Shown piece by piece: positions 18,690-58,443 of a DNA stretch of 64,000 bases. The position numbers and the translations under genes were made by a program. Where the stretch lies: NCBI RefSeq assembly GCF_000430625.1, contig NZ_AUMJ01000015.1, forward strand, positions 62,001 to 126,000, read 5' to 3'. The first letter of the stretch is position 1; each line of letters opens with the position of its first letter. Source of the DNA: Aneurinibacillus terranovensis DSM 18919. GTDB lineage: Bacteria; Bacillota; Bacilli; Aneurinibacillales; Aneurinibacillaceae. The notes beneath the pieces were generated by a model, which saw only the letters and a list, made by a program, of their open reading frames with translations, did not search any database and was not told where the DNA came from.

Positions 18690-18822
18690 ATGATAATCTA
18701 TTATTTGTTGATCAGTGTGTCTGACACCTCAGGCATACTACAACCGCTCGAAACAGGTTATAAGCCAGCGGCCTTGCTGCGCCTGTGCCGGCGAGTCTTA
18801 GTATATAAAGGAGGTGCAGTTT
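18690..18822 (+). ncRNA. Probable L21 ribosomal leader upstream of rplU
   Basis: The stretch between rng and rplU is non-coding and ends in a strong AAAGGAGGTG ribosome site. It contains several short complementary runs (for example CTGACACC and GGCCTTGCTGCGCC areas). Bacillales rplU mRNAs usually carry an autoregulatory L21 leader. I assign it by position and length, not by a verified covariance match. A weak promoter (TTGCAA at 18671, TAATCT 17 bases on) precedes it. Confidence 0.45.
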
Positions 18823-28159: not shown

Positions 28160-28284
28160 GCGTTTTGTAGCAAAAGCGGGACACACCGAATCCGTATTTT
28201 TGCGGGTTTTCCCTTGCAAGGAAGCCGTGACTGTCCGCGCTTTTCCTTCGTTTCGGGACCGGACCGAAACATCCGGAGCAATGG
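28160..28284 (+). other. Structured gene-free leader region
   Basis: No credible gene. The stretch holds a palindrome CCTTGCAAGG (28212-28221), a hairpin AAGGAAGC/GC-TTTTCCTT (28218-28248) with CTGTCCG in its loop, and a perfect GTTTCGG/CCGAAAC hairpin (28250-28270). Together with the following long hairpin it looks like one structured transcript read from ilvE or from a promoter of its own. Confidence 0.5.
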
Positions 28285-28493
28285 GAATGGAACGGTTCGT
28301 TTTTATTTTTTGTGGAGTCTTTCCTTACAGGGAAGCGTCAATTACCCGTGTGATTCCAAAAAAGGGCGACCCTGTCCGGAACATCTGGGTAGCTCAGTGA
28401 TGGAGACAAGCGGACAGGAAAGACGTTTCCCTTTTTGGAATCACACTGGGTAACGGAAAGAAAACAAAAAATCAAAAACGGAGCATTCCATTC
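28285..28493. ncRNA. Long compound hairpin, candidate structured RNA or MITE
   Basis: The two halves are complementary over seven helices: 28285-28292/28486-28493 (8 bp), 28298-28313/28464-28480 (16 bp, one bulge), 28319-28324/28455-28460 (6), 28342-28347/28448-28453 (6), 28348-28357/28437-28446 (10), 28358-28366/28429-28436 (8, one bulged A), 28371-28378/28411-28418 (8), with a 32-base apical loop. That is about 62 base pairs in 209 bases. A 17-base one-sided bulge lies at 28325-28341. No significant open frame. It does not match SRP RNA or the symmetric central bubble of 6S RNA as I know them. Orientation is unknown. Confidence 0.7.
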
Positions 28494-28570
28494 GCGCCAC
28501 CTCGCATTTCATTCCCTTGCCCGCTATCGCTTAGTTTACGTTCAGTCGGATCTAAATAAAAAATGGTAAG

Positions 28571-29560
28571 TTACCCAATCAAGTGATGATAGCTTGCAAA
28601 AAAATGCTCTCGTTTTCTTGTCTGCCGGATCAGCATGGAAAGAAAAAACTCGATGCGGTCAGCCTGAAATCCCCTTTTATGGTCGTATAACCCGATGACT
28701 TCACGGAGGAAATTATCAGGAAAACGAAGTAGCAAAAAAATCAGACTGAGATCCTGCCGGGTGAGTGGACGAATGTTCTCATAGGTGGCCATAATCATGT
28801 GGAATACAGCCGGGTTCCATTCCTGCTGAACGAGAACCCGGCTGATGAATTGAGCAATATCTACGATTGGTGTGTCATATGCAGCCGTATCGAAATCGAT
28901 TAAAGCCGCTGTGTGTGACCTGGTGATGATAAAATTGTGGCTGGCGAGGTCCCGGTGAGATACAAAAAAAGATTCGAGAGACTTCGTATATTCTTTACTA
29001 AGCTCCGACCTTTGAAGGGCGGTCATTGCGCGGTGAGCTTCTTCAAGAATAGAAGGAGCGGCCCAACGAATGAGTGCGTCCAGTCTCGGATTGGGAGAAA
29101 TGGGGGCTGCATTGGTAACCATTTCGTAAAACCGCTTCATCCGTGTGCTCCATTTAAAAAGAAGAGGGGGCACGGGGGATGTTGCCAAAGGGCCAGGGAC
29201 TATGTTTTGGGAGAAGGTATGAAAAAGAGCCAGTGATCGAGCCGCGCGTTTTATATCGTCCCGGTTAAAATAGCTGCTGCAGCGCCCCTCAATTTTTTTC
29301 ATCACGGTAAAATAGCTGCCGTTCCAAGCGAAAAAAGGAGAACCATCATACGCGCGAATGTACTGGACAACTTCGCGATATCCCCTTGAAAAAAGTGAAT
29401 CTGCCAAATGAGTAACCCAGAGAGCTTTCTCCATCGAGGCATAAGCTTTTATAACGACACTTCCTTTGTTTGTCTCACAAATCCACACTTTTTGCTTGTT
29501 GATTATCCGGATAACTTGGGCGTTGTAGGCTTGTTCAATCTTCAGAGCCAGTTCCCGCAT
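28571..29560 (-). CDS. ysxE: YsxE/CotS-like phosphotransferase-fold spore protein
   Basis: 329 residues with an aminoglycoside phosphotransferase/CotS-type kinase fold: Brenner motif HRDLASHNFI and the metal motif LIDFDTAAYD are intact. The CotS family includes spore coat proteins such as CotS, YtaA and YsxE; in B. subtilis ysxE lies next to spoVID and near safA. Here it is downstream of the safA-like gene on the same strand. Start at 29560: GGAGG lies 8 bases upstream of this ATG, better than the ATGs further upstream. Small-molecule kinase activity is possible but unproven. Confidence 0.78.
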   Translation of the reverse strand: MRELALKIEQAYNAQVIRIINKQKVWICETNKGSVVIKAYASMEKALWVTHLADSLFSRGYREVVQYIRAYDGSPFFAWNGSYFTVMKKIEGRCSSYFNRDDIKRAARSLALFHTFSQNIVPGPLATSPVPPLLFKWSTRMKRFYEMVTNAAPISPNPRLDALIRWAAPSILEEAHRAMTALQRSELSKEYTKSLESFFVSHRDLASHNFIITRSHTAALIDFDTAAYDTPIVDIAQFISRVLVQQEWNPAVFHMIMATYENIRPLTRQDLSLIFLLLRFPDNFLREVIGLYDHKRGFQADRIEFFLSMLIRQTRKREHFFASYHHLIG

Positions 29561-29599
29561 ACTATAATCCTCCATGTGTTGTTCCATTTAATATAGAAG

Positions 29600-58240: not shown

Positions 58241-58245
58241 CCGTT

Positions 58246-58295
58246 AAGGAAAGTATATGTTGCTTTACAGTGTTAAAGCAACATATACTTTCCTT
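58246..58295. repeat. Perfect 22-bp inverted repeat between secF and recJ
   Basis: Bases 58246-58267 are exactly complementary to 58274-58295, with a 6-base loop CAGTGT. It has the same geometry as the inverted repeat at 42401-42450 but an unrelated sequence. The rest of the gap, 58296-58443, holds a CCCGAG/CTCG-GGG hairpin but no credible gene. Confidence 0.8.
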
Positions 58296-58443
58296 CCATT
58301 GGTCACCCGAGAAAAACTCGCGGGAGTGTGCCGAACGTTGCTTTTTCAATGTGGAGCGTGTGGCCGGAAGGTCGATCAGACCGACAATTGTCTCCATCTT
58401 CGAGTTACCCGGATGTTTCAGGCCAATCCCCTTCCTTTCCTGC

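Follow-up and report, generated by a model that had tools for sequence, protein, structure and literature searches.

Short gene-free repeats of bacteria are mostly catalogued and seldom understood. Elements of the IS200/IS605 group move by single-stranded transposition, carry subterminal hairpins and, on one side, use a short fixed target. The bcr repeats are gene-free. As described in PMC6542083, they are dispersed, 100–400 bp long, present in tens of copies, restricted to certain hosts and possibly mobile; their mobility is tied to a TTTAT motif, and they are confined to the B. cereus group. Repeats of the bcr1 type are named among foldable elements in PMC2267715, which also records ERIC-type palindromes, consisting of one long stem-loop in many copies, for E. 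coli, Yersinia and Vibrio. REP sequences of 20–40 bp (PMC3733652) and REPINs are palindromic repeats linked to tyrosine transposases called RAYT (PMC2817692, PMC3116915). Group IIC introns are reported to insert at intrinsic transcription terminators (PMC4424553).

The window, i.e., the whole stretch of DNA that was analysed, comprises 64,000 nucleotides from Aneurinibacillus terranovensis DSM 18919, whose genome is assembled in 98 contigs. Downstream of ilvE, in the gap before a convergent gene, there is a long compound hairpin (Table 1). This hairpin probably belongs to a family of non-autonomous mobile elements without genes, whose fold and core would be recognized in trans and which would land just past the T-tracts of terminators.

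The hairpin itself is real, as the original prediction had claimed. The plus strand folds with a minimum free energy (MFE) of -88.3 kcal/mol, whereas shuffled sequences average -51.8 kcal/mol (z -9.1; 0 of 200 shuffles equally stable), and the minus strand reaches -83.8 kcal/mol (z -8.9). The predicted details changed. The MFE structure contains 79 pairs instead of some 62, because the 32-base loop is partly folded and the left one-sided bulge holds a small local hairpin. The absence of a coding frame stands in the sense that only short mechanical ORFs, of 66 and 79 amino acids, cross the hairpin. A covariance search against Rfam, which had been proposed as a check, found no family covering the hairpin at the gathering score, in agreement with the view that it is neither SRP RNA nor 6S RNA. 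The best sub-threshold matches were long-hairpin plant microRNA models; these and the other weak matches at E <= 10 did not reach the gathering threshold and were discarded. Similarly, 19 element loci, including those of relatives, gave no Rfam match at the gathering score, with SRP RNA, 6S RNA and introns among the models searched. The sole Rfam match in the window is a ribosomal protein L21 leader (RF00559) at 18732-18808 (+).

The element extends past the hairpin: half of a copy from a sister subfamily lies directly upstream, and a repeat-specific extension downstream. On the minus strand, the extension motif separates the A/T-tract from the palindrome, and in several other copies of the same subfamily it directly follows the T-tract of a terminator. 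The window copy lies behind the half copy in the 3' gap of ilvE, and its extension adjoins the convergent gene's T-rich end. By analogy with the type C copies described below, the minus-strand T-tract at that end is probably the target side.

Table 1. Features of the element copies in the window (window positions).
Feature	Position	Strand	Basis
Gene-free gap, 411 bp	28160..28570	.	ilvE stop (28159) to stop of convergent minus-strand gene (28571-29587); ORF list
Subfamily B half copy: 5' half, ends within apical core	28177..28276 (about)	+	82% and 76-81% matches to genomic B-type copies
Complete subfamily A palindrome (the predicted hairpin)	28285..28493	+	Fold z -9; 70-85% identical 209-bp units elsewhere in the genome
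Outer T-rich arm, partner 28464-28477	28300..28313	+	Independent inverted repeat I2
Middle stem 5' arm; sequence varies among copies and re-pairs	28345..28365	+	Independent inverted repeat I1; A-copy alignment
Apical helix 5' arm (alignment A1 columns 3-10)	28372..28379	+	8/8 pairs with two-sided changes, 60 copies
Conserved 29-nt apical core AACATC..GGGTA..TC....GATGGAGACA	28380..28408	+	Pattern searches; covariance model R1
Apical helix 3' arm (alignment A1 columns 41-48)	28410..28417	+	Covariation, 60 copies
Middle stem 3' arm	28429..28449	+	Inverted repeat I1; alignment
Outer A-rich arm, partner 28300-28313	28464..28477	+	Independent inverted repeat I2
Subfamily A external extension motif	28530..28549	-	Also present beyond the palindrome in further A copies
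T-tract past end of convergent gene; probable target side	28554..28563	-	Sequence; position by analogy with type C
Second window copy: type C right part, intact right end beside terminator	58241..58418	-	R1 match 58378-58424; BLAST

BLAST with the gap as a query found 76 pieces in the A. terranovensis genome, with 40 scored places. The case of a lone conserved copy beside ilvE or safA, which the original prediction had considered, is refuted by these dispersed copies. Alignment of the copies defines a common unit of approximately 205–210 bp, in which the middle stem differs from copy to copy and re-pairs. Three subfamilies are seen: A, represented by the window copy; B, represented by the upstream half copy; and C, whose members are near-identical and recent. 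The subfamilies have unrelated stems, one architecture and a near-invariant 29-nt apical core. In type C, the big hairpin is followed on the right by a further conserved part. The genome contains 68 left and 81 right ends of type C; 55 of the right ends have a left partner, and some copies are interrupted by contig ends or N runs. The second copy in the window is a mosaic formed at the conserved core, where a type C right part joins an A/B-like half. Several A copies are preceded by a half element, and therefore the half copy and the A palindrome may form a single composite unit.

Some copies have individual peculiarities. Directly to the left of the A palindromes at loci L001, L003, L005, L016 and L182 there is a half element that ends within the apical core, as in the window. 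Three type C copies (L278, L305 and L309) have a common internal deletion between short CGGCC repeats and have lost the apical hairpin. An inverted loop (AACACTGT/ACAGTGTT) is seen in the small right hairpin of L074 and of the right ends at C3:85672, C49:27462 and C67:4482 of A. terranovensis. At L202 (C58:1900-3500 of A. terranovensis), two oppositely oriented A-type ends are separated by about 740 bp of intervening sequence.

The apical core (29–30 nt, at most two mismatches) occurs 74 times in A. terranovensis, 70 times in Aneurinibacillus sp. Ricciae_BoGa-3, 36 times in A. tyrosinisolvens LL-002, six times in genome G005 and 72 times in genome G036, which belongs to another family (f24) than the host. 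The same search gave no match in genomes G012 and G014, and the reversed core pattern, used as a control, gave none. An exact scan with a shorter core of a collection of 84,980 species, without the genome of the window, found only the species of Ricciae_BoGa-3, A. tyrosinisolvens and A. danicus. Among 398 genomes drawn from the phylum, the core at no more than one mismatch was present in one, that of A. terranovensis itself. R1, a covariance model built from the apical helix and the core, reached E <= 0.01 in 19 of 398 genomes of the class. These comprise all 11 of the host's family (f1), G036, four of family f23 and three single weak matches. Convincing matches in f23, the third family, are those of G489 (2.3e-10), G444 (7.8e-7) and G480 (4.2e-6); the copies in G489 show the same layout with different stem sequences. 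The R1 counts are lower bounds, as 15 candidates per genome were scored. The weak matches in G479, G491, G495 and G764 (E 0.004–0.007) are at chance level among 398 genomes and were not taken as members. Viral contigs contained no core, and blastn of the window element against plasmids and phages gave no match. A different small palindrome (GATATGAAAATACC...GGTCAT) occupies the same spot near the right end at six loci of G036 (L082, L085, L087, L089, L092 and L098). No description of this repeat family was found in the open-licence PMC literature. The family is so far unnamed, is spread in Aneurinibacillus-type genomes, and keeps its fold while its sequence changes.

For covariation analysis, 117 distinct segments were reduced to at most 12 per genome (59), which with the window copy gave 60 rows. 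All eight pairs of the apical helix changed on both sides in this alignment, and 88% of the helix cells pair. Double changes were seen in 143 cells, compared with 58.2 in shuffled alignments and at most 43 with slid partners. The small apical stem CATC/GATG showed no two-sided change in the 60 rows, and its pairing is therefore not claimed. The fold of the element is under real constraint. Within single genomes, divergence outside the core, measured with a strict core anchor, is 0.097 at paired and 0.082 at unpaired sites in Ricciae_BoGa-3, and 0.256 and 0.253 in A. tyrosinisolvens. Paired sites are less divergent than unpaired ones in G036 (0.175 and 0.231) and in type C of A. terranovensis (0.019 and 0.044). 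Since paired sites are somewhat more conserved in these two sets, there may be some selection on individual copies. The core is less divergent than the rest in every genome set, with the copies themselves having been found through the core. Together, these values suggest that the moving lineages keep the fold and that settled copies drift.

The right end of type C has a specific type of target. Among 67 distinct right flanks of type C and its relatives in A. tyrosinisolvens, 63 carry an A-run of four or more nucleotides within 14 nt of the element, and for 61 of them the 60-nt flank gives a fold of -10 kcal/mol or better. The corresponding numbers for left flanks are 12 of 53 for the A-run and 19 of 53 for a strong fold. 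On the other strand, the A-tract and hairpin of the right flank read as a hairpin and a T-tract, and therefore the element starts just past the expected end of the neighbouring transcript. The right end of type C abuts an intrinsic terminator, immediately past the T-tract of the neighbour gene on the opposite strand. These counts cover type C and its A. tyrosinisolvens relatives; in subfamily A the rule was seen in several copies, uncounted. In Ricciae_BoGa-3, the right-hand gene is opposed in 29 of the 31 classified copies (44 in total, with seven within mechanical ORFs and six without a neighbour). Furthermore, 59 of its 70 cores lie on a single strand up to the midpoint of the chromosome and on the opposite strand beyond it (hand count; p 2e-9).

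Insertions into other copies are also found. At L019 and L182, type C copies are nested in older type A copies, at an A-tract ahead of a stem, and L205 contains two type C copies in tandem; all three loci keep the terminator rule. Two to three bases are repeated at the insertion in L019 and L182 and none in most copies; no constant target duplication is present across 34 aligned type C-like copies. The BLASTN comparison suggested as a check for a MITE hence yielded the expected multiple copies, but not the constant target duplications. Another dispersed repeat, starting AAAGAAAACTTGGCTAGCGCCAAG, is a landing site of type C-like copies in two genomes (right flanks of L058, L071, L220 and L144).

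In A. tyrosinisolvens, ilvE is likewise located between pheA and the convergent gene (85% identity for ilvE, 69% for pheA and 45% for the convergent gene). The gap of about 110 bp downstream of ilvE contains only a bidirectional terminator and is without the element. A close ilvE (E <= 1e-80) is present in two of ten relatives, and neither has the element directly downstream (read by eye), although a cis-acting RNA at this site would be expected to be conserved there. This comparison is one of presence and absence, coarser than a base-exact empty site.

A mobilizing enzyme was searched for among the neighbours of the copies. An all-against-all comparison of 1990 ORFs from element loci gave no transposase-like cluster among those listed and no recurrent ORF family beside the copies; some of the clusters arise from translation of the repeat. 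Y1_Tnp and RVT_1 domains occur, but their numbers in the 10 genomes counted do not track the element, and their loci have no ends in common with it. The loci examined contained no autonomous relative with the same ends, though assembly gaps (e.g., 1165 N in L293) may hide one. Right ends lacking a core were considered as autonomous insertion sequences or 5' truncations and set aside, many being assembly gaps or contig ends. True truncations number 10 on the left, or 11 with the second window copy, and six on the right (11 of 17 against one half, p = 0.17). One-sided G.T/A.C mismatches in four sets (47/114, 152/129, 96/109 and 162/175) indicate no consistent RNA strand. The group II introns of these genomes are ordinary ones. 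On contig C1 of Ricciae_BoGa-3, RT domain pieces 1-82 and about 76-204 lie approximately 3 kb apart at some eight places (e.g., 3336778-3340470 and 399740-403415), as if an insert had split the gene of an intron reverse transcriptase in every copy.

As pairing within the element is conserved, a single-stranded form, DNA or RNA, is the likeliest substrate. A trans-supplied enzyme would recognize the folded single strand via the apical core and helix, and would join the right end of the element at terminator hairpins. Source copies would need the fold in order to move, and dispersed copies would then decay. Of the two possibilities originally named, a structured RNA and a folded miniature transposable element, the latter fits the copies, their nesting and the absence at ilvE. 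The plain double-stranded form of a MITE fits less well, since it does not require a constraint on the fold. With regard to MITEs in the broad sense, dispersed gene-free copies and evidence of movement (nesting and the ilvE absence) are present, and a constant target duplication is not.

The same palindromes could be read as a classical double-stranded MITE, with terminal inverted repeats at its ends on which a DNA transposase, now lost or so far unseen, would act. The copies are palindromic at their ends, numerous and in part nested, which agrees with this, but the missing constant target duplication, the failure to find a transposase gene beside the copies, and the covarying pairs deep in the interior, which an enzyme of this kind would not need, make it unlikely. 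The fixed right end and the specific target on the right side only would also suit a bacterial SINE. In such a case, a folded RNA of the core strand would be copied by a trans-acting reverse transcriptase that primes or lands at terminator 3' ends, with the core as a putative enzyme-binding site and the RNA 3' end landing beside the T-tract. The 10 clear left truncations, together with the second window copy (type C similarity from position 87), point the same way, and group IIC introns provide a precedent for terminator targeting (PMC4424553). However, the right-truncated copies leave no significant bias, G005 carries copies without any RVT_1 domain, the introns are ordinary and the wobble signal is inconsistent. 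No gene-free SINE-like family of bacteria was found in the open-licence PMC literature, and we regard this explanation as quite improbable.

A function for the host would give a different meaning to the same covariation and near-invariant core over three taxonomic families. As a structured RNA or 3'-UTR element, each copy would act on the neighbouring mRNA through termination, stability or a core-bound protein, and the copy number would reflect a regulon. The position of copies at gene ends, their orientation with the neighbouring gene in Ricciae_BoGa-3, and the slightly better conservation of paired sites in G036 and type C are consistent with such a role. Nevertheless, the syntenic ilvE gap of A. 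tyrosinisolvens is empty despite at least 36 cores in that genome, and near-identical recent, nested and truncated copies exist. Moreover, paired sites have no advantage in conservation over unpaired ones in Ricciae_BoGa-3 and A. tyrosinisolvens, and the mismatches favour no RNA strand in any consistent way, so that a host RNA is quite improbable. The case that the original prediction had named against itself, a recent inverted duplication at this site with no conservation or broader significance, has nothing in its favour beyond the palindrome and a negligible probability, because homologous copies are dispersed over the genome and occur in other taxonomic families. A mobile element recognized in trans through its fold and core is the explanation that we prefer.

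This family offers unusual handles: a near-invariant apical motif, pairing kept across families, recent near-identical copies and a precise rule for landing at terminators. These make the movement of non-autonomous bacterial elements, and the single-stranded form that is recognized, directly testable. The element family also accounts for contig breaks in such assemblies, and its insertion alters the 3' ends of many genes.

Compared with REP and REPIN sequences, no recurrent transposase was found beside the element copies, and Y1 counts do not track them. Hairpins and a one-sided target are present, so that the element may derive from the IS200/IS605 group; no matching IS ends were found. The choice of terminators as a target, measured here on type C, is like that reported for group IIC introns. 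Unlike these introns, the element is about 210–280 nt long, has no Rfam group II intron match and no RT ORF, and shows unrelated motifs. Judged by the published description of the bcr repeats, it differs from bcr1 in having a terminator hairpin as its target and in occurring in three taxonomic families. Like the ERIC sequences, it is a long stem-loop in many copies, whereas its subfamilies have unrelated stems around a fixed apical core and are located beside terminators. In form, the bcr and ERIC-type repeats are the closest to the element.
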